Below, piece by piece: positions 28,088-59,603 of a stretch of DNA of 64,000 nt. The DNA is taken from assembly GCF_019857205.1 (NCBI RefSeq), contig NZ_JAHWXO010000002.1, forward strand, positions 248,001-312,000, given 5' to 3'. The stretch is from Qipengyuania pacifica (lineage in GTDB: Bacteria; Pseudomonadota; Alphaproteobacteria; Sphingomonadales; Sphingomonadaceae). The notes under the pieces were generated by a model, which was not told where the DNA came from, did not search any database, and worked only from the letters and a program-made list of their open reading frames with translations. The position numbers were made by a program, and so were the translations under genes. How positions within the stretch are numbered: the stretch's first letter is position 1; every line of letters starts with the position of its first letter.

Positions 28088-28117
28088 GAAAAGTGGTCAT
28101 CTGAATTAGCCGTCGCG

Positions 28118-49744: not shown

Positions 49745-49793
49745 TCACTTCCTAAGAAGTGAATGGCTCCCCGAGTTGGAAAAAGGGAGCCAT
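49745..49793. repeat. Two adjacent hairpins at the integrase-side att
   Basis: TCACTTC (49745-49751)/GAAGTGA (49756-49762) forms a perfect stem with loop CTAA. Next to it, ATGGCTCCC (49763-49771) pairs with GGGAGCCAT (49785-49793), so the second inverted repeat is built around the att repeat itself. These may be arm or structural sites for recombination, or a terminator for chromosomal transcripts. Confidence 0.55.
49764..49780 (-). repeat. att repeat, integrase-side copy
   Basis: Seventeen bases identical to the 3' end of tRNA-Asn (59529-59545), beginning with the complement of CCA. The identity stops abruptly on both sides. It is a displaced tRNA 3' end as left by tRNA-targeting integrases and marks the left island boundary. 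Confidence 0.85.
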
Positions 49794-49934
49794 CCCTGTG
49801 TTTCCAACGCCATCCAACGTTCTCCTAAAATGCTGTAATGTAGAGCTTTCGTTGTCCATGCCATTCCATGTGCAGCCATTGCAAGCCAGCATTTAATGTG
49901 GGAAACCGTGTGGGAACGAGAAGGATGGCTCCAC

Positions 49935-51116
49935 ATGGGAAAGCTCACTGCGCTCAAAGTCAAACACGCCGCGCCAGGAATTCATGGCGACGGCAAAGGT
50001 CTGTATCTCAGGGTCAAGGACACAGGCGCAAAAAGCTGGGTGCTGCGCGTCCAGTTCAACGGTAGGCGGCAAGATATCGGGCTTGGCTCGATAGATGATC
50101 TGACGCTGAGCGAGGCGCGCGATAAATCAGCCTTCCTGCGAAAGATTGCGCGAGCGGGTGGAGATGCAATTGCGGTACGCGACAAGAACAAAGTGAAGAT
50201 CCCGACCTTCGCAGAAGCGGTGGACTTGGCGCATGCTGAATTGGGAAAGGGCTGGGCTGAAAAGACTGCCGAGCAATTCAAGGCATCATTGGATACTCAC
50301 GCGGTGCCGCGCATGGGCAAAAGGCGGGTCGACGAGATTCAGGTTGAGCATATTATTGCAGCACTTTCCCCAATATGGACTGAGAAACCTCAAATAGCTC
50401 GCAAGGTGCGCCACCGCATCATTCAAACCTTGGCCTTCGCGAAGTCACATGGCTGGCGATCAGAGCAGGTTCCGCTGGCCAAGGAAATCACCGGCGGACT
50501 AGCGAAGCAACCTGAGAGCAAGGGATTTCGTGCCATGCCCTTCAAGGAATTGCCTGATTTCATCGCGGGAGAACTTTCAAAGGCAGAGTCACCTGCGCGA
50601 CTGGCATTGCTTTTTACCATTCTCACCGCAGCCCGATCAGGCGAGGTCCGCCGGTCCACATGGGCAGAAATCAACTTCGGCGACGCATTGTGGAATCGGC
50701 CAGCTGAACACATGAAGTCTGGAAGAGCACACACCGTTACACTCTCGGATGCCGCTCTGACCGTGTTAAAGCGTGCCAAAGCGCTTTATGGTGAAGAGGG
50801 TTTGATATTCCCCAACGCGCGTCGCAAGCCCCTTTCTGACGCGGCTCTAGGCAAAATGTTGCGGGACGGTGGGAGAGAAGAAACCGTTCACGGTTTTCGG
50901 TCGACTTTCCGAGATTGGGCTGCTGAAAAGATGCCGTCAATTCCATTTACCGTGGCCGAACTTGCGCTCGCTCATGCGGTCGGCAACGCAACTGAACGGG
51001 CATACTTGCGGAGCGATCTGCGAGATATGAGGTCTTCACTTATGAGTTCATGGGGTGCATTCGCGGCTCCATCTCTTTCTCGGAAACAGGCGAATGTTGT
51101 GTCGATCCATGCCTGA
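49935..51116 (+). CDS. Site-specific tyrosine integrase (P4-like, DUF4102 N-terminus)
   Basis: A 393-residue recombinase. N-terminal arm-binding domain (KLTALKVKHAAPGIHGDGKG, QDIGLGSIDDLTLSEARDK), core-binding domain, then catalytic residues. These are Arg in TAARSGEVRRSTW, His-x-x-Arg in VHGFRSTFRDW, His in LALAHAVGN and the nucleophile Tyr in ATERAYLRSD. P4-type integrases commonly use tRNA 3' ends, matching the att repeats found here. Start ATG 49935 (MGKLTALK); the ORF is open 13 codons further up but those lack family similarity. It is read away from the left att, 154 bp distant. Confidence 0.95.
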   Translation: MGKLTALKVKHAAPGIHGDGKGLYLRVKDTGAKSWVLRVQFNGRRQDIGLGSIDDLTLSEARDKSAFLRKIARAGGDAIAVRDKNKVKIPTFAEAVDLAHAELGKGWAEKTAEQFKASLDTHAVPRMGKRRVDEIQVEHIIAALSPIWTEKPQIARKVRHRIIQTLAFAKSHGWRSEQVPLAKEITGGLAKQPESKGFRAMPFKELPDFIAGELSKAESPARLALLFTILTAARSGEVRRSTWAEINFGDALWNRPAEHMKSGRAHTVTLSDAALTVLKRAKALYGEEGLIFPNARRKPLSDAALGKMLRDGGREETVHGFRSTFRDWAAEKMPSIPFTVAELALAHAVGNATERAYLRSDLRDMRSSLMSSWGAFAAPSLSRKQANVVSIHA

Positions 51117-51438: not shown

Positions 51439-52218
51439 ATGAATAGTCAATCGAAGCTGCTTGCGAAATTCTCGATGGCCGAAGCTTGGAAGGCTTTCGT
51501 CTCAGTGTCGCGAGCATGTTTCTTGTTCATACTGAAACCGCAGCCTGCCATCAGGGAAAAAGACTTGTTGCCATTTTCGCCTTTGGCGGTTGGAGTAAGT
51601 CTACTGGCCCTATCGCTGGTTGTCACAGCGATGCTTGCCCTCGCGGCATTGCCGCTCTTTCTGATGGCTGACGCAGCCCCTGGGAGTCAGCTTCATCAGG
51701 TTATGTCTCGCTCGATTGCATCCGTCGTCCTGGCGGTGGTCGTTATCGGGCCCTTGATCGAGGAGGTTATGTTTCGAGGCTGGTTGTCGGGCACGTGGCG
51801 GTCTGTCGTCGGCAGCACGGTGTTCGTCGCGCTTGTGTTTGGCGTTATTCACGTCGTCGACGGGCTGTTCTCGGTTTCGGCAGCAATCATCCAGTTGGGG
51901 CTAGCCGCCATTGGGATGATTGGATTCCAGCTGTTGTCACCGATCGATACTGGCAGGCGATTGCCGTATTTCGAGCGCGCTTTTCCATTCATTTTCTGGG
52001 CGCAAGGTATCGTGTTCGGCGTTTTGCATTTTCAGAATATAGCCACGATTTCTCCGGTCGTCGCGGTCCTATATACGCTTCCCCTTGTGATTTGCGCGTG
52101 GCTTTGGGGTTTTGCGAGGATCTATCTCGGTCTTGCGAGTGCCGTCCTTCTACATGCTGTCTACAATGTGCCTGCCGTTGCAGGCATGCTCACCATCGTG
52201 ATGCTGCAAGGCACATGA
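51439..52218 (+). CDS. CPBP-family intramembrane metalloprotease
   Basis: About 259 residues with several hydrophobic helices. The CPBP/Abi signature is present: EEVMFRGW (EExxxR, first glutamate pair), FGVIHVVD (FxxxH) and a late helix HAVYNVPAVAG (HxxxN/D). An additional FGVLHF sits before it. CPBP proteins include eukaryotic CAAX prenyl endopeptidases and bacterial proteins used for bacteriocin maturation or self-immunity. ATG 51439 has GGAGG 11 nt upstream; ATG 51421 is an alternative. It precedes the ABC operon by 129 bp and may act with it. Confidence 0.85.
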   Translation: MNSQSKLLAKFSMAEAWKAFVSVSRACFLFILKPQPAIREKDLLPFSPLAVGVSLLALSLVVTAMLALAALPLFLMADAAPGSQLHQVMSRSIASVVLAVVVIGPLIEEVMFRGWLSGTWRSVVGSTVFVALVFGVIHVVDGLFSVSAAIIQLGLAAIGMIGFQLLSPIDTGRRLPYFERAFPFIFWAQGIVFGVLHFQNIATISPVVAVLYTLPLVICAWLWGFARIYLGLASAVLLHAVYNVPAVAGMLTIVMLQGT

Positions 52219-52255
52219 CTGCGGCATCGTTCTGATCTGAATCTAAAAGTCCGAT

Positions 52256-52296
52256 CGTGACATCTGTCATGCTGCGCGGCTTACACCTCGCACTGC
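52256..52296 (+). promoter_or_regulatory. Conserved regulatory block upstream of the ABC operon
   Basis: Palindrome CGTGACATCTGTCATG (52256-52271; arms TGACA/TGTCA) with CGCACTGC beginning 33 bp after its first base. It matches the block at 55797-55837 at 28 of 41 positions without gaps. Likely binding site and promoter elements for the operon's own response regulator. ATG of the ABC gene is 51 bp further on. Confidence 0.65.
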
Positions 52297-52347
52297 TTTC
52301 CCCGCTTTATTGGTCCTAGTCCGAGGGCCGATGACGAGGAGAACCAG

Positions 52348-53262
52348 ATGCAGACAGACCCGAGCCTCAATGTCGCCAAGTTGGAATGCGTTTCCAAATC
52401 TTATGGTGGCCTGCGCGTGTTGGAGGATTTCAGCTTTGAACTCGAACCCGGATGCGTAACGGCGCTGCTTGGTCCCAATGGGGCAGGTAAATCCACCGTT
52501 GCCGGGCTTTTGACCGGACGCCTTTCAGCAGATGTCGGCCAGATCAGCCTGTTTGGGCTGGACCCGCGCGATCGCCGGGCGCGGGCCCGAATGGGCATCA
52601 TGCTTCAATCCGCTGGCTTGCCTGAGACGCTGACAGTGATGGAGCTGATTGACCTGCACGCGAGCCATTATGCCCGCCGCATGGCAACCGAAAGGGTGAT
52701 CGAGCAGGCCGGGCTGGTCGATCTCGCGGACCGTCGATGTAGCAAGCTTTCCGGAGGAGAGCAGCGCCGGGTTCAGTTCGCTCTCGCCATTTCCGGTGCG
52801 CCTGACCTCCTCGTTCTGGATGAGCCGACGACCGGTTTTGATTCCGAGGCTCGTCGGGCCATGTGGCAGCTTGTCCGCGCCAAAGCCGAAGCGGGAACAG
52901 CCGTGTTACTGGCAACGCACCATATGGATGAGGCAGACGCACTGGCAGATCGCATCGTCGTCATTGCGAACGGCGGTATTGTCGAAGACGGCCCGCCCTC
53001 CCAGATCAAGTCGCAAGTGGCAGGCTCGGTTCTCAGATTGCGGACCCGGCTGCCTGCTGCACGGTTCCGCAACCTGCCCGACATTGTGAAAGTCGAAGAG
53101 CGCGGAGCAGATCTCGCAATTCTTACATCGAGCCCCCGGCTCACGCTGGAATCGATATTCCAAATCGACCCCGACCTTCAGCACTTCGAGGTTGTTGGAG
53201 CATCACTCGAAGACGCAATTGAGAACCTCATCATGAGTCAGAGCAAAAAGGAAGCCGCGTAA
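52348..53262 (+). CDS. ABC transporter ATP-binding protein (drug/lipid export type)
   Basis: A 304-residue ATPase with Walker A LGPNGAGKSTVAGLL, signature KLSGGEQRRVQFALA, Walker B LLVLDEPTTGFD and H-loop LLATHHMDEADALADR. The extended C-terminal domain is typical of CcmA/DrrA-type exporters. AGGAG lies before the ATG. The permease ATG overlaps its stop (TAATG). It works with the following ABC-2 permease. Confidence 0.95.
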   Translation: MQTDPSLNVAKLECVSKSYGGLRVLEDFSFELEPGCVTALLGPNGAGKSTVAGLLTGRLSADVGQISLFGLDPRDRRARARMGIMLQSAGLPETLTVMELIDLHASHYARRMATERVIEQAGLVDLADRRCSKLSGGEQRRVQFALAISGAPDLLVLDEPTTGFDSEARRAMWQLVRAKAEAGTAVLLATHHMDEADALADRIVVIANGGIVEDGPPSQIKSQVAGSVLRLRTRLPAARFRNLPDIVKVEERGADLAILTSSPRLTLESIFQIDPDLQHFEVVGASLEDAIENLIMSQSKKEAA

Positions 53263-54014
53263 TGTCTGATCTTCTCCCTGCAGCACCGCGCATCTATTGG
53301 CTCGAAAGCAAGGCTGAGATCATCAAGTCGGCGCGCATGCCGCAATTCATCATTCCTACCATCGCGCTGCCTCCTGCATTCTATGCGCTCTTCGCGCTCG
53401 CTCTCGGGCAAGGCAGCGAAGCAGCTGCAACGCAAACGCTGGCCACCTTCGGAGTGTTTGCGGTGATGGGGCCGGCGCTGTTCGGTTTCGGCGTCAATAT
53501 CGCTGCCGAACGTGAAACCGGCCAGCTTGAATTGAAACGGTTGTCTCCGATGCCAGCAGGCGCGCAGATCACTGCCAAGATCGCCGCCACCACAGTATAT
53601 TGCGCCGTTTCATTGGTGATGCTGTATTCGCTCGGTATCGTTGCAGGTGTTGCGCTTGATGCGGCACAATGGACCGCGATGATCCTTGTCCACTTCCTTT
53701 CCATCATTCCGTTCTCGCTGATTGGAATTGGAATAGGTTACCGGTTCGGACAGGGCGCTGCCGTTGCCCTCGCCAACATCGTATTTCTTTCTCTCGCCGT
53801 CATGGGAGGCCTGTGGTTTCCGATTATGGCTATGCCTCAAGTGATGCAGAGCGCCGCTTGGGTTTTGCCCTCCTATCATCTGGGCGAAATAGCGTTGATG
53901 GCGGCAGGTCAAAGGAATGACGGCTTCCTTCTATTGCATGTGGGGCCCTTGCTGCTCATCACGCTTGCAACAGCTATCTTCGCTTGGACTGGGGAAAGGC
54001 AGCAATCACGGTGA
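53262..54014 (+). CDS. ABC-2 type permease
   Basis: A 250-residue membrane protein with about six helices. The N-terminus (IKSARMPQFIIPTIALPPAFYALFALALG) and the conserved loop of ABC-2 permeases (FGVNIAAERETGQLELKRLSPM) are visible. The late helix contains LSLAVMGGLWFPIMAMPQVMQ. Transport substrate unknown; a membrane-active peptide or lipid is typical for such two-gene exporters with DesK-like kinases. Its TGA overlaps the kinase GTG. Confidence 0.9.
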   Translation: MSDLLPAAPRIYWLESKAEIIKSARMPQFIIPTIALPPAFYALFALALGQGSEAAATQTLATFGVFAVMGPALFGFGVNIAAERETGQLELKRLSPMPAGAQITAKIAATTVYCAVSLVMLYSLGIVAGVALDAAQWTAMILVHFLSIIPFSLIGIGIGYRFGQGAAVALANIVFLSLAVMGGLWFPIMAMPQVMQSAAWVLPSYHLGEIALMAAGQRNDGFLLLHVGPLLLITLATAIFAWTGERQQSR

Positions 54015-55180
54015 AGCAAGACGAAACAATGGAGACTAGCGGGACGCCGGCGCACCCTCAGCCATCGGTAAACGCGATCGGCGAGCTTGGTGCTGGAAAG
54101 GGGCGACCGGTCAAGCCTATCCCTTGGTCCAAGCTCGACCACCCGGCCATCTGGCTCGCTTATCTTCCCTTGTTCTTCATCCCATGGTTCATCGAGCGAC
54201 CAAGCCTTACCCAGATGATCGCCGCGACGGCAGGGCTCGTCCTCTTTCTCGCTCTCTATTTCGCCGCATTCAAGGCAACCGGCAGACGCCTCACAATGCT
54301 GGCGGTGGCCACTCTGCTGATTTCTTTTGCACTGGCCTTCACAGGCAGCAACTGGACGGTGATCACAATCTATGCCGCCGCGATGGTTGGCAACCTGCGA
54401 CCGCCGCGCCACGCCGCCATTCTGGTAGGGAGCTTCGCAGTCGCCACCTGCGTTCTCGCTTTCGTAACCAGACAACCTGTGATCTTCTGGGTATTCGGTG
54501 TGTTCCTCGCTATCATGGTCGGTGCTGCCAATATCTCGCGTGCGGCGCTCGAGGACAAGAACCAAGCCCTAGCAGAATCTCGCGACGAGGTGCGCCAGCT
54601 CGCCGCTGCAGCCGAGCGCGAGCGTATCGGGCGCGATCTTCATGACCTCTTGGGTCGAACACTGACGCTGATCGCCATCAAGGCTGATCTCGCGGCCAAA
54701 CTGTCCGACAGGGACAGCGATGAGGCGAGGAAAGAGATGCGCGAAATTGCTGCGGCTGCGCGGCAAGGGCTCGCCGATGTTCGCTCGGCAGTCAATGGCA
54801 TGACCGGGGCAACGCTTAGTCGTGAGCTTGCGACTTCGCAAGCGGCGCTCTCTGTCGCGGGGATCCGATGCAAAATCGAAGGCGATGCAGACCGAATAGA
54901 CCCCGGCAGCAGTGCGGTGCTCGCCATGGCACTGCGGGAAGCGATCACGAATGTCATTCGACATTCGGGAGCATCGTTGTGCGAAATCATTCTCAAGCAA
55001 CAGCCGGGAGGACTTGAGATGACCGTTAGCGACAACGGCCATGGTGAGGCCGTGCGGGCGGGAGGGGGAATATCGGGCCTTCGATCCCGTCTCGGAGCGG
55101 CTGGAGGAGATCTCGCCGTTCGTGGGACATCTGAGGGAACGCGACTGGTTGCGCGTCTGCCGCAAGGAGCAGCGGCATGA
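54011..55180 (+). CDS. DesK/NarX-like sensor histidine kinase
   Basis: A 389-residue kinase. A Pro-rich cytoplasmic head is followed by about five closely packed helices (about 47-175) with almost no periplasmic loop, as in intramembrane sensors. A HisKA_3 helix (ERERIGRDLHDLLGRTLTLIAIKADLA, split view, His211) comes next, then a compact HATPase (ALREAITNVIRHSGAS, VSDNGHGE, GGGISGLRSRLGAAGG). It probably senses membrane state or an exporter-associated signal and phosphorylates the next gene's product. GTG start overlaps the permease stop; ATG of the regulator overlaps its TGA. Confidence 0.92.
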   Translation: MKQDETMETSGTPAHPQPSVNAIGELGAGKGRPVKPIPWSKLDHPAIWLAYLPLFFIPWFIERPSLTQMIAATAGLVLFLALYFAAFKATGRRLTMLAVATLLISFALAFTGSNWTVITIYAAAMVGNLRPPRHAAILVGSFAVATCVLAFVTRQPVIFWVFGVFLAIMVGAANISRAALEDKNQALAESRDEVRQLAAAAERERIGRDLHDLLGRTLTLIAIKADLAAKLSDRDSDEARKEMREIAAAARQGLADVRSAVNGMTGATLSRELATSQAALSVAGIRCKIEGDADRIDPGSSAVLAMALREAITNVIRHSGASLCEIILKQQPGGLEMTVSDNGHGEAVRAGGGISGLRSRLGAAGGDLAVRGTSEGTRLVARLPQGAAA

Positions 55181-55782
55181 TCAGGCTCGTCATTGCGGAG
55201 GATCAGGCAATGGTTCTCGGTGCGCTTGCGACCGTGCTGTCGCTCGAAGACGATATCCAGGTTGTCGCTCGCGCGGAGGATGGCACAACTGCGCTTGAAT
55301 ATGTGAGGCAGCACAAACCCGATATTCTCCTGTCCGATATCGAGATGCCCGGTCTTTCTGGTCTTGATGTAGCCGAGGCTGTCACGCGAGAGAAGCTGGA
55401 AACGAGCGTCTTCATTGTAACGACATTCGGGCGCGCGGGCTATCTGCGTAGGGCTATGGATGCAGGGGTGCGTGGCTATCTGCTCAAGGATACACCGTCT
55501 GACGCTCTTGCCGCCGCAGTGCGAAAGATCGCCGCCGGAGGAAGGGCAATCGCGCCGGAACTCGCGGAGCTCGCGTGGGACGCGCCCGCCAATCCGCTTA
55601 CCGAGCGCGAACGGGACGTGCTGCGACTGGCCGACGAAGGACGCTCGAACAAGGAAATTGCCCGGCAGCTTGATCTCTCGCCCGGGACAGTCCGCAACTA
55701 CCTGTCAGAAGCCTCAAGCAAGCTGCATGCGTCGAGCCGCATCGAAGCCGGTCGCATCGCCCGTGATCAGGGATGGCTCTGA
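55177..55782 (+). CDS. NarL/DesR-family response regulator
   Basis: A 201-residue regulator. Receiver with MIRLVIAEDQAMVLG, phospho-Asp54 in LLSDIEMPGLSGLDV, and LLKDTPSDAL around the conserved Lys. The LuxR-type HTH is LTERERDVLRLADEGRSNKEIA and LSPGTVRNYLSEASSKL. Dimeric NarL-type regulators bind short inverted repeats, which fits the paired palindromes upstream of the ABC operon and of the hydrolase gene. Confidence 0.94.
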   Translation: MIRLVIAEDQAMVLGALATVLSLEDDIQVVARAEDGTTALEYVRQHKPDILLSDIEMPGLSGLDVAEAVTREKLETSVFIVTTFGRAGYLRRAMDAGVRGYLLKDTPSDALAAAVRKIAAGGRAIAPELAELAWDAPANPLTERERDVLRLADEGRSNKEIARQLDLSPGTVRNYLSEASSKLHASSRIEAGRIARDQGWL

Positions 55783-55796
55783 AGCGTTTCCATCTT

Positions 55797-55837
55797 CGTG
55801 ACGTTTGTCAGGTCTGCGGTCTGACAGCCCGCACTGC
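55797..55837 (+). promoter_or_regulatory. Conserved regulatory block upstream of the BAAT-type hydrolase
   Basis: Palindrome CGTGACGTTTGTCAGG (55797-55812) with CGCACTGC starting 33 bp after its first base, the same layout as at 52256-52296. It starts 15 bp after the response-regulator stop and 89 bp before the hydrolase ATG, so the hydrolase probably has its own regulated promoter. Confidence 0.65.
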
Positions 55838-55885
55838 CTAGGCCGACCTAGAAGGCATAATGCTCTGCCGATCAAGGAGAGCGAA

Positions 55886-56896
55886 ATGCGTTCAGTCAGA
55901 ACAGTCTTACCGGTCATCGGGATTGCTATCCTGCTGGCGGGAGCTGCCCTGTTTCAGCAGGCAGCGCCGGACCGCTACGGGCTGCCTGAGATCGAGGTGC
56001 TCGATCCCGGGCCGACCGGCCAGCGCATCGACCAAGATGAGTTATTCGGCAACTTTTACCCCGCAGCCGGAAATGCAGGCATCAGTCAGGACGTACCTCG
56101 TCCCGCCGTGCTTCTCCTTGGCGGCTCTGAAGGCGGGCTCGGCGGCGGTGCCAAGCAAATGGCGCTCTCGCTGCAGGAAGAGGGGTTTACGGTCCTTCAT
56201 CTGGCTTATTTCGGCGCGCCGGAGCAGCCTGATGCGCTTGAACGCATACCGCTTGAATTGTTCGATCAGGCTCTCGAATGGTTGAAAGAGCAGCCGGGGG
56301 TCGATCCAGGAAGGCTGGCCGTCGTTGGTGCATCCAAGGGTGCAGAGGCTGCCTTGCTAGTTGCAACTCGAAGGTCCGATCTTTCGGCGGTGGTCGCCGG
56401 AATGCCGACAAATGTCGCGTGGAACGGGATTGATTGGGCTAGGAACGGGCAAAGCCTTTATTCTTCCTGGACGGCTTCAGGCGAAGAGGTGCCGACGATG
56501 CCGTTCTCTGACTGGAACGCATCGGATGGTATCATTAGCGTCTATCGCACTATCGAGGATCCCACGCATCGCGCCAATGCAGATCGGGCAGCGATTCCGA
56601 TTGAACGAGCCAGCGCAAAGATCATGCTCGTATGCGGAGAGGCCGAAACGATGTGGCCCGCATGCCCTATGTCCCGAATGATTGCAGAGCGCAGTGCCGA
56701 GCGCTCAGGTCCCTCCATTACCGTTTTGGCCTATCAGCACGCCGGACATTTCGTTTTCGGGCCTCCAGTGGCTTCGGACAACCCGTTTTACCGCAGGCTC
56801 GACGCGTTCGGCGGAAGCGTCGAGGGCAACGCTACCGCGCGCGCCGACAGTTGGCCGAAAGTCGTGGCATTCATTAAGGCTCGGGCAGCCGATTAG
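55886..56896 (+). CDS. Membrane-anchored BAAT/acyl-CoA thioesterase-type alpha/beta hydrolase
   Basis: A 336-residue protein. The N-terminal hydrophobic segment (VLPVIGIAILLAGAALF) is an anchor or signal. The hydrolase core has AVLLLGGSEGGLGGG, nucleophile elbow LAVVGASKGAEAALLVATR (Ser150), LVCGEAETMWP (acid) and AYQHAGHFVFG (His). This is the C-terminal domain of bile-acid-CoA:amino acid N-acyltransferase/thioesterase proteins without their N-terminal domain. It probably hydrolyses or transfers acyl groups on the outer face of the inner membrane. AAGGAGA precedes the ATG. Confidence 0.82.
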   Translation: MRSVRTVLPVIGIAILLAGAALFQQAAPDRYGLPEIEVLDPGPTGQRIDQDELFGNFYPAAGNAGISQDVPRPAVLLLGGSEGGLGGGAKQMALSLQEEGFTVLHLAYFGAPEQPDALERIPLELFDQALEWLKEQPGVDPGRLAVVGASKGAEAALLVATRRSDLSAVVAGMPTNVAWNGIDWARNGQSLYSSWTASGEEVPTMPFSDWNASDGIISVYRTIEDPTHRANADRAAIPIERASAKIMLVCGEAETMWPACPMSRMIAERSAERSGPSITVLAYQHAGHFVFGPPVASDNPFYRRLDAFGGSVEGNATARADSWPKVVAFIKARAAD

Positions 56897-57037: not shown

Positions 57038-57283
57038 TTAAGAATCAATCTGATCGACCGACTTGCGCCTACGCTCAACGAGGCTCCTCAAACTCTCAGT
57101 GAGCACCAATGTCGAACTGCCCAGCTTGATGTACTCAATTTCTCCTTCGCCAATGAGCACATAGAGCGTGCTTCGACCGATCCCGAGATAGCGGCAGGCT
57201 TCCGGAACCCGCATGGCAATCGGTTCGATGTCGGTCTGGATTTTCTGCCTGGCTCGCTGCTCATTCGCGCCTGATGTCGGCAT
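57038..57283 (-). CDS. Excisionase/AlpA-like HTH protein
   Basis: An 81-residue protein of the helix-turn-helix type used by excisionases: AMRVPEACRYLGIGRSTLYVLI followed by the wing EGEIEYIKLGSSTLVLTESL. Such proteins bend DNA at att sites or activate the integrase gene. Start ATG 57283 has AAGGA at nine bases; further upstream starts lack a ribosome site. Its presence supports an excisable island. Confidence 0.85.
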   Translation of the reverse strand: MPTSGANEQRARQKIQTDIEPIAMRVPEACRYLGIGRSTLYVLIGEGEIEYIKLGSSTLVLTESLRSLVERRRKSVDQIDS

Positions 57284-57806
57284 GCCGGTCGGTCCTTTCA
57301 TCAATCGGGTGATGACGGACTGACCTGGGGGACATGGAGCGGAGCAGGTCAGGCCCGCCATCGAGATCGATTATCCCTCAATGCGGTCTGGTTGCGCCAC
57401 ATGACGTTTCTACGCTGGGGCTGCCGTTCTCACGCCATTGTGCCGATGGATCACCGAATTCGAGCAAAACGCACACTCATGCATCCGAGCGGACGAGCAC
57501 AGACCTGCACTTTGAGGCATGTCGAGGCCGATTTGAGCAAATCTCGACAAAGCGCCGTCGCCAGTTTGCTTGAAAAGAAACAGCTTTTGGAGGGAAGCGC
57601 CGCAGAGGTGTTTCGAGCGCCGTCGCACATTACCCCACAAAACCAACCACCTGCAGCCCGACCGACGGCGCTGCTTCTATCTTGCCATCCAATCCAACTT
57701 CAAAATCAGACGCCCACGGACCGTTGTCTTTTGGGCGCGCACGGCTTGCTCAAAACCTGCGAACGCCGCGCATTCGATCTACAGCGAGTCTGCACACGGC
57801 GCGCGC
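57284..57806. other. Non-coding or unassigned island DNA
   Basis: About 520 bp without a convincing gene. Open frames on both strands exist but have low-complexity, Arg/Ser/Cys-rich translations and no motifs. Not recognisable as a decayed known gene. Confidence 0.5.
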
Positions 57807-58181: not shown

Positions 58182-59120
58182 TTAAGCCTTGTCTGGTCGC
58201 GCCCTTGCGTCAGCCTTGAGCTTTTCGAGACGTTCGGTGCACACCTCGTGGACGACGCGGCCCAGTTCATCGACCTGTCGCCCAAGCCATTCGAGTTCTT
58301 CTTCGGTGATGCGGTAGTGTTTCGAGTAGCGCGCTTTGACGTAAGCTTCCTTGAGCTTCTCGAACCGCGCGCGATCACGCTTGGTCTCGCGGGGCCAGAC
58401 ATAAGTGAGGCGGCGATCAATGCGCTCGGCTTGGGTGCGCAGAAAACCGAGATTATGCACGTGGGGAGTGTAGAATGTGCAGACCAGAAGCACACAATGG
58501 TACAAACGCTCCGCTGCTTGATGTAGCTGGAAAGCCGCGTTGTTGTTTCGGCCTTGATCTCGGTTGAACTTATAATTGTCGAAGAACTCAGCGCCGGTTC
58601 GGTACCATTCGTCGAAGTACTCTTGCGCCATCGCTAGCGCCTGCGTCGGCGTCTTGGGCTTGGGCGTGTGCAGCTCGGTACCGTCGAACTGGTAGAGAGC
58701 TACGCCGTCGTCCTTCACATCCATGAAGAAGTAGCGACCGTGGGCGAGCCCGTCGTTCACCTCTTGCAACGTGTGGACGATGAAGTTGACTGGGGTCTTG
58801 AGTGCCTTGGTAACCCCGTATTCGCGCATCAGCCGGTCGTCGAGCTTCGCCCAGTACTTTACCCGGTCGACCAGTCGCTTGTCATTGACGATGATCAGCA
58901 GGTCATAGTCCGACTGGTAGCCCTTGGCCGTATGCGGCTCGTCGACCCAGGTGCCGCGCGCATAGCTGCCGTAGAGGATCACCTTGAGGATGCGTCCGGC
59001 CTTCTTCCATTGATGCTTGGCCAATGCGAAGGCATCGTCGAACTCTTCAAAGATCAACTGCACCACGCGTTCCAGCTCGCGCTGCTTTTGCGGTGGCAGA
59101 TGATCGAGATCGGTCTTCAT
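58182..59120 (-). CDS. Nucleotidyltransferase-HEPN fusion protein
   Basis: The protein has 312 residues. The N-terminal minimal nucleotidyltransferase domain has the active-site pattern YGSYARGTW (Gly51-Ser52) followed by the acidic pair SDYDLLIIV (Asp71, Asp73), so it looks catalytically able. The C-terminal part (NAAFQLHQAAERLYHCVLLV, YVKARYSKHYRITEEEL) is a HEPN-type helical domain. I do not see a clean R-x4-6-H ribonuclease motif. Separate MNT and HEPN genes form toxin-antitoxin pairs in which MNT AMPylates HEPN; here both are on one chain. It sits in an island near the tRNA end, as defence or addiction genes often do. Confidence 0.82.
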   Translation of the reverse strand: MKTDLDHLPPQKQRELERVVQLIFEEFDDAFALAKHQWKKAGRILKVILYGSYARGTWVDEPHTAKGYQSDYDLLIIVNDKRLVDRVKYWAKLDDRLMREYGVTKALKTPVNFIVHTLQEVNDGLAHGRYFFMDVKDDGVALYQFDGTELHTPKPKTPTQALAMAQEYFDEWYRTGAEFFDNYKFNRDQGRNNNAAFQLHQAAERLYHCVLLVCTFYTPHVHNLGFLRTQAERIDRRLTYVWPRETKRDRARFEKLKEAYVKARYSKHYRITEEELEWLGRQVDELGRVVHEVCTERLEKLKADARARPDKA

Positions 59121-59313: not shown

Positions 59314-59399
59314 GGTTCCTGATAGACCGACCTTTCGGTTCCCGATAGTACGAGTCTCCCGGTTCCTGATAGACCGAACACATACCCGCCTTATCCACA
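59314..59399 (+). other. Iteron array with DnaA box (origin-like segment)
   Basis: Three direct repeats of GGTTCCTGATAGACCGA begin at 59314, 59337 and 59361 (23- and 24-bp periods). Copies 1 and 3 are identical over 17 bp and copy 2 differs at three positions. Thirteen bases later comes a perfect DnaA box TTATCCACA (59391-59399), followed by about 80 bp of A/T-rich DNA up to the att. This is the layout of an iteron plasmid origin, but no replication initiator gene is seen in the island. Confidence 0.6.
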
Positions 59400-59528: not shown

Positions 59529-59545
59529 TGGCTCCCCGAGTTGGA
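59529..59545 (-). repeat. att repeat, tRNA-side copy
   Basis: The 17 bp comprise the complement of CCA, the discriminator base, the 3' acceptor strand and the start of the T-arm of tRNA-Asn. Identical to 49764-49780. Right boundary of the island. Confidence 0.85.
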
Positions 59546-59603
59546 TTCGAACCAACGACCAAGTGATTAACAGTCACCTACTCTACCGCTGAGCTATCGG
59601 GGA
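59529..59603 (-). tRNA. tRNA-Asn (anticodon GTT)
   Basis: A 75-nt cloverleaf read on the minus strand. Acceptor TCCCCGA/TCGGGGA, D-arm GCTCAGCGGTAGAGT, anticodon loop CTGTTAA with GTT, T-arm GGTTCGAATCC, discriminator G and encoded CCA. Complete and probably functional; its 3' end is the island attachment site. Confidence 0.97.

Follow-up and report, generated by a model that had tools for sequence, protein, structure and literature searches.

A putative export-and-cut regulon with an exchangeable enzyme on a tRNA-Asn-integrated element of Qipengyuania pacifica

Introduction

ATP-binding cassette (ABC) exporters under DesK/DesR-like control are already known. The locus described here lies in a 64,000-nucleotide stretch of the Qipengyuania pacifica genome (contig NZ_JAHWXO010000002.1, positions 248,001 to 312,000; hereafter, the window), in which genes for an ABC ATPase, an ABC-2 type permease, a DesK-like kinase and a DesR-type regulator are followed by a gene for a BAAT-type alpha/beta hydrolase with a predicted membrane anchor. 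A preliminary description had joined these five genes and an upstream CPBP protease gene into one island-borne system for envelope self-protection or acyl remodelling. Comparison with related sequences brought out a recurring gene set, a shared palindrome, the same palindrome at unlinked kinase-regulator pairs and an exchange of the enzyme.

Two described systems are the nearest worked examples of the control. In LnrJK-LnrLMN of Bacillus subtilis, a two-component pair induces an ABC transporter, with resistance to membrane-active polyenes (PMC7472640, available in part). EdsRS, an envelope-damage two-component pair, controls its own ABC genes (EdsAB) and a second ABC-2 operon with the enzyme ClsT (PMC7157781, available in part). 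The window module shares with the former the pairing of a two-component system with an ABC transporter, but LnrJK-LnrLMN is Gram-positive and its lnrJKLMN set, in the available part of the source, includes no hydrolase. In EdsRS/EdsAB-ClsT, as far as that source extends, the enzyme is a cardiolipin synthase, whereas the window enzyme is a hydrolase.

For the export-and-cut principle, the nearest worked example, in other protein families, is YbbAP-TesA of Escherichia coli. This ABC-plus-periplasmic-hydrolase complex, described in 2025, was proposed to extract a hydrophobic compound and cut it, with lysophospholipids as the proposed compound (PMC12646458, available in part). In the same source, YbbAP-TesA combines a Type VII ABC transporter with TesA; here, an ABC-2 permease is combined with a BAAT-type hydrolase or an amidohydrolase and with a kinase-regulator pair sharing a palindrome. 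The window permease matched the ABC2_membrane families, not the Type VII ABC permeases. Among the literature matches listed, there was no report of the module or its palindrome.

A shared palindrome at the module

Contigs of a wider sample were scanned with an alignment of five permeases, which gave 83 relatives, and 80 loci were kept. The arrangement set consisted of 87 loci: these 80, four regions from the family sample (see below), two plasmids and the window (L077, with no permease, was dropped). The operon closest to that of the window was L093, from Erythrobacter longus DSM 6997. The palindrome pattern was first seen in the window and then tested on the other loci.

In the window, exact TGACNNNNGTCA was present three times (mean of shuffles 0.67; 3 of 100 shuffles reached three). 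Evaluable loci numbered 83, window included, after removal of four that had less than 300 bp upstream or lacked a usable ATPase match. The exact palindrome was located at most 260 bp before the first gene in all 83, a number that overstates independence because of near-copy loci (L076/L124; L128/L174). Among 597 windows upstream of other genes called in these loci, 7 had the same pattern, as did 46 of 12,107 random windows. In the four hydrolase-led operons, the site precedes the hydrolase.

A weight matrix trained solely on the sites before ATPase genes was applied to the enzymes that follow the regulator. A matrix site was found in 16 of 16 cases (empirical p 0.003-0.013 each, top 1.4% of the null); 11 sites were exact and five had one mismatch (L099, L100, L102, L103, L104). 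The 41 regulator ends without an enzyme had no exact site and no score above the 99% point. From sequence comparison, it is inferred with good support that the ABC ATPase, permease, kinase, regulator and hydrolase genes form one regulon. This core of the preliminary description, in which the hydrolase shares a regulon with the island-borne ABC and DesK/DesR genes, is better supported than could be shown from the window by itself.

The hydrolase and its exchange with an amidohydrolase

Window proteins were searched by tblastn (E 1e-4) in the 80 loci, and relatives were found in 78 for the ATPase, 75 for the kinase, 72 for the regulator, 16 for the hydrolase and none for the CPBP protein. The hydrolase adjoins the operon in these 16 loci, in three positions, and an unrelated, exported-looking amidohydrolase is present in 23 of the 80. 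No locus had both enzymes (chance 0.002 if independent, relatedness ignored). Across the 87 loci, the hydrolase follows the regulator in 12 (with a gap of 2.3 kb in L102), precedes the ATPase in four (one on plasmid NZ_CP155750) and directly follows the permease, without kinase or regulator, in two. The amidohydrolase lies between permease and kinase in 17 loci, after the regulator in four and directly after the permease in two, one of which is cut by a contig end. Other flanking enzymes at some loci with neither enzyme, esterase-like or peptidase-like by their sequence beginnings, were not counted because none is preceded by an exact site among the sites listed.

The window hydrolase matched BAAT_C (PF08840) with 91.9 bits (curated cut-off 20.9) and was closest to human ACOT4 and ACOT2 by sequence and fold (template modelling score 0.70 on the query; AlphaFold 2 (AF2) model with pLDDT 86 and pTM 0.85). 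Its Ser150, Glu254 and His288 align with the residues which we take to be the catalytic triad of ACOT4; residue 254 is Asp in L114, L122, L123, L127 and L139. The Ser150 elbow, previously described as intact, is so: the Ser in GASKGAE was invariant in 17 of 17 aligned operon hydrolases. The BAAT_C domain, triad positions and fold are shared with BAAT/ACOT enzymes (ACOT2, ACOT4). Animal BAAT/ACOT enzymes have an N-terminal Bile_Hydr_Trans domain, whereas Pfam gave no match to it in the window hydrolase or in four relatives. The N-terminus of the window hydrolase is basic and carries a single hydrophobic helix (residues 4-25 in the AF2 model, at low confidence), which is read as a signal anchor and would leave the catalytic domain facing the periplasm. 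The amidohydrolase of L138 was closest to imidazolonepropionase-like amidohydrolases and peptidases; of three amidohydrolases scanned with Pfam, this one had a CIA30-like end, below the cut-off.

An ATPase-permease tree was built from 79 of the 87 rows; L100, L118, L073, L074 and L173 were dropped after a failed gene call, and three loci for lack of a usable ATPase match. The amidohydrolase locus L125 and the BAAT-type locus L127 were sisters (support 100/97), and L139 (BAAT-type) was next. The N-termini of the three enzymes are alike (L125, LATFERAAMPRPPRT; L127, LATFERAAMPRPGRT; L139, LATFERADRPAPGR), and the L125 and L127 enzymes have in common the anchor LATFERAAMPRPxRT. Beyond the anchor, no L125-L127 alignment was obtained (score 8, vs 1027 for L127-L139). 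As judged from these sequences, the catalytic part was exchanged behind one membrane anchor, in one direction or the other. The 18 hydrolases from operons fell into three groups with support in the hydrolase tree (of 12, 4 and 2 rows), with stand-alone hydrolases (n = 28) between the groups; both trees carry long-branch warnings. L114, from a record titled Arthrobacter sp., grouped with Sphingomonas in both trees and is probably a mislabelled genome.

Unlinked pairs and sites elsewhere in the genomes

The genomes of L125, L127 and L139 encode a close regulator and kinase elsewhere, and the site is present about 130 bp before each kinase. In the regulator, every residue of the segment GTVRNYL was conserved to at least 95% across 77 operon regulators. 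The segment was also present in four unlinked regulators and differed in the 8 paralogues examined.

The pattern TGACANNTGTCA occurred 70 times in 50 genomes (17 in 10 and 53 in 40), with 0-4 occurrences per genome and none in 4 of the 50; a reversed-pattern control gave 9 matches. Of 65 sites examined, 37 were at the module and 28 elsewhere. The palindrome could instead be the target of another widespread regulator, or a promoter element, not bound by the local regulator, and the 28 off-module sites, set against the 9 control matches, speak for this. It is nevertheless improbable given how few sites there are per genome, the share of them at the module, their presence beside three of four unlinked regulators, and a GTVRNYL segment kept in the operon regulators and different in paralogues. 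The looser pattern TGACNNNYGTCA gave 26 forward matches in the genome that contains the window, vs 13 for the control.

Some off-module sites precede genes of related interest. In Oceanicaulis HTCC2633, whose operon has no adjacent enzyme, a site is located 69 bp before an unlinked amidohydrolase gene with a signal-like N-terminus. Others precede HlyD-type genes in both Oceanicaulis genomes (HTCC2633 and that of L131), DUF6622 genes in two Stenotrophomonas, a fatty-acid desaturase gene in Gluconacetobacter (with a start codon chosen by the analyst), a DUF418 gene in Oceanicaulis BBD and, 83 bp upstream, a CPBP gene in Maricaulis (L252). These amidohydrolase, HlyD-type, DUF6622, desaturase, DUF418 and CPBP genes are candidate further members of the regulon; many of the remaining off-module sites overlap called frames and are probably chance occurrences. 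Upstream of the ABC gene in L166, L169, L171 and L172 (Stenotrophomonas, Xanthomonas), there is a divergent HlyD-like adaptor gene (identified by reading), then an ABC ATPase match. The HlyD-like gene shares the intergenic region, and therefore the palindrome, with the exporter operon.

Genes of the locus and the place of the CPBP gene

The six genes of the preliminary description are all on the + strand with intact frames (Table 1), and with the overlaps it gave: TAATG between ATPase and permease, GTGA between permease and kinase, and ATGA between kinase and regulator. Matches to Rce1-like, ABC_tran, ABC2_membrane, HisKA_3, Response_reg, GerE and BAAT_C all exceeded the curated Pfam cut-offs; HATPase_c in the kinase was just below (25.8 vs 26.4 bits). 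A HisKA_3 kinase is thus paired with a Response_reg/GerE regulator, as in DesK/DesR-type pairs, and the N-terminal half of the kinase is hydrophobic, as judged by reading the sequence. The hydrolase starts at ATG 55886. The LnrLMN exporter has an ATPase with two permease genes, whereas one permease gene is present here. DrrAB-type ABC-2 exporters have the same ATPase and permease families, but the window proteins scored well below the drrA and drrB cut-offs (TIGR01188, 179.4 vs 312.45; TIGR01247, 17.5 vs 223.05). No producer cluster was noticed at the window element, where no dedicated search for one was made.

Table 1. Positions of features in the window and of operator-like sites in other loci
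Feature	Position	Strand	Basis or remark
Left copy of 17-bp direct repeat, att-like	49764..49780	+	Exact match to tRNA-Asn 3' end
Tyrosine integrase	49896..51116	+	Pfam Phage_integrase, Arm-DNA-bind_3, Phage_int_M
CPBP/Rce1-like intramembrane protease	51439..52218	+	Pfam Rce1-like, 46 bits
Putative operator 1, TGACATCTGTCA	52258..52269	+	90 bp before ABC ATPase gene
ABC ATPase	52348..53262	+	Pfam ABC_tran; highest NCBIfam score for drrA (below cut-off)
ABC-2 type permease	53262..54014	+	Pfam ABC2_membrane, ABC2_membrane_3
DesK-like membrane histidine kinase	54011..55180	+	Pfam HisKA_3; start GTG 54011 or ATG 54029
NarL/DesR-type response regulator, conserved GTVRNYL segment	55177..55782	+	Pfam Response_reg, GerE; alignment of 77
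Putative operator 2, TGACGTTTGTCA	55799..55810	+	87 bp before hydrolase start
BAAT-type alpha/beta hydrolase, predicted membrane anchor, proposed triad Ser150, Glu254, His288	55886..56896	+	Pfam BAAT_C, alignments, AF2
Excisionase/AlpA-like helix-turn-helix (HTH) protein of element	57038..57361	-	NCBIfam excise above cut-off; Pfam HTH_17
Right copy of 17-bp direct repeat	59529..59545	+	Inside 3' end of tRNA-Asn
tRNA-Asn, integration target	59529..59603	-	ARAGORN; adjoins other chromosomal DNA in relatives
Off-module operator-like sites	L232 1501-2985; L241 1501-2509; L242, L284, L252, L282, L240, L294

The CPBP gene is probably neighbouring cargo and not part of the system; of the five families first proposed as one system, only the ABC transporter, kinase, regulator and hydrolase are supported as belonging together. 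Besides the negative tblastn result, a CPBP profile (30 sequences) found none in six frames of the 80 loci; it also missed the Maricaulis CPBP control of L252, and distant CPBP proteins could therefore be overlooked. There is no operator directly before the CPBP gene in the window, and scores for Myxosortase/MrtJ/MrtS and other named CPBP systems of NCBIfam were below the curated cut-offs (18.7-30.6 vs 75-220 bits). The gene is set aside pending the Maricaulis lead. Its position just upstream, together with a best ATPase score to drrA-type self-protection exporters (below cut-off), would suit a module that exports and matures a self-made secreted product trimmed by the hydrolase, with the CPBP protein as a further maturation protease. 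This explanation is very improbable: no CPBP relative was found in the 80 loci, and no biosynthetic gene or precursor was noticed among the open reading frames of the element, where no dedicated search was made.

Mobile element and insertion at tRNA-Asn

The 17-bp repeat has two copies only in the window, with up to 3 mismatches allowed. They bound a 9.8-kb stretch, which, besides the integrase and the cargo, encodes an excisionase-like HTH protein, an HNH protein and a nucleotidyltransferase-HEPN protein. The cargo genes sit in a 9.8-kb mobile element integrated in tRNA-Asn, in agreement with the island initially proposed. An integrase, a flanking repeat of the tRNA 3' end and an unoccupied site in relatives were all found.

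In 6 of 11 same-genus loci (L220, L221, L222, L224, L225, L228), the tRNA-Asn 3' end joins DNA matching the window up to about position 28096. The whole insertion therefore spans about 31 kb (28097-59528), and the 9.8-kb element makes up the part nearest the tRNA. The unoccupied site corresponds to this larger outer insertion, and no precise empty site for the 9.8-kb element alone was seen in the relatives. When the empty site was sought from the left-flank gene, no tRNA was present there in L215 and L216; a DNA search from the tRNA side found the site. A related integrase (43% identity) adjoins the same tRNA-Asn in L227 and, with the composite 31-kb insertion, makes this tRNA gene look like a reused site.

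Two further features were observed where the element meets the tRNA. A single protein (58182-59120, - strand), encoded beside the HNH gene, has a nucleotidyltransferase domain at its N-terminus and a HEPN domain at its C-terminus, and resembles fused MNT-HEPN toxin-antitoxin or defence parts; PADLOC gave it one weak match (PDC-S09). A 17-bp repeat is present three times with 23-24 bp spacing at 59314-59377, iteron-like and adjoining the tRNA-Asn end. A defence-system reading of the module was rejected; PADLOC gave ATPase-type matches for the ABC protein and none for the kinase, CPBP protein or hydrolase.

Discussion

The proposed mechanism, given about an even chance of being right, is that the DesK/DesR-like pair induces an ABC-2 exporter and a periplasm-facing hydrolase that together remove and cut a hydrophobic compound. 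The DesK-type membrane kinase would sense a membrane-active, hydrophobic compound, or the disturbance that such a compound causes, and phosphorylate the DesR-type regulator. The regulator would bind TGACANNTGTCA-like operators and switch on the ABC-2 exporter, the kinase and regulator genes and the membrane-anchored hydrolase. The exporter would then extract the compound from the inner membrane; the hydrolase would cut an acyl bond in it and so prevent its return. Export would thereby be coupled to hydrolysis, the second step being performed by a BAAT-type serine hydrolase or an amidohydrolase, depending on the lineage. Envelope self-protection or acyl remodelling, as suggested initially, is plausible.

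Several observations weigh against this mechanism. BAAT and ACOT relatives act on coenzyme A (CoA) thioesters; these are not expected in the periplasm, where a BAAT-type enzyme would need another substrate, and the topology was judged by reading N-terminal segments and not by a predictor. In a fourth genome (L165), the unlinked regulator, at L212, had no kinase match and no exact site beside it, and the second Oceanicaulis genome scanned (that of L131) had no exact site before an amidohydrolase. Many loci are related, and the counts exceed the number of independent events. Neither enzyme was present in the DNA compared for 41 of the 80 operons, some of which (e.g., L095, L098) stop short of the enzyme position at contig ends; export alone may therefore suffice. 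Such operons, and the lack of CPBP relatives, are what the preliminary description had held to count against it, but the same palindrome precedes the ABC and hydrolase genes.

Co-occurrence was also scored in a family sample of 249 genomes (E limits 1e-10; kinase 1e-20), with relatives found for the hydrolase (24 genomes), permease (5), kinase (6) and CPBP protein (50). Permease and hydrolase were found together only in the window's own genome (permease alone in 4, hydrolase alone in 23), and this result, taken alone, speaks against a fixed pairing of the two. It would also suit a hydrolase that is merely a chance neighbour on the same element, an explanation rejected as extremely improbable in view of three separate pairings, three positions, the shared palindrome and replacement by another enzyme.

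A possible but rather unlikely alternative is endogenous lipid housekeeping, in which the regulon senses the state of the membrane, and lipid that is damaged or in surplus is extracted by the transporter for deacylation by the hydrolase, with no foreign compound involved. The DesK/DesR pair controls a desaturase, and the Gluconacetobacter site precedes a desaturase gene whose start was chosen by the analyst. YbbAP-TesA is proposed to do likewise with lysophospholipids (PMC12646458), and one of the operons under EdsRS control combines ABC-2 genes with a cardiolipin synthase (PMC7157781), as described in the available parts of both sources. A variable outside target, however, is better suited to the patchy distribution, the mobile carriage (the window element; plasmid NZ_CP155750) and the exchange of enzyme folds, and an amidohydrolase would be an odd enzyme for ester lipids.

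Inducible ABC exporter modules are known; new here is the exchangeable cutting enzyme. DesK/DesR-like control of ABC genes and the idea of an ABC transporter with a periplasmic hydrolase seem to meet in one regulon. Tentatively, and at somewhat less than even likelihood, the loci may represent a class of inducible export-and-cut modules, as yet without a name, that is widespread in alpha- and gammaproteobacteria. Such modules would be marked by TGACANNTGTCA and would consist of an ABC-2 transporter and an anchored hydrolase whose catalytic domain is exchangeable between unrelated folds, with an optional HlyD-type pump, desaturase and CPBP protease. The palindrome can be used as a motif to search for further members, which may in turn lead to the substrate. 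The exactness of the palindrome and the exchange of enzymes in nature make it directly testable whether efflux pumps recruit cutting enzymes and so make export irreversible.

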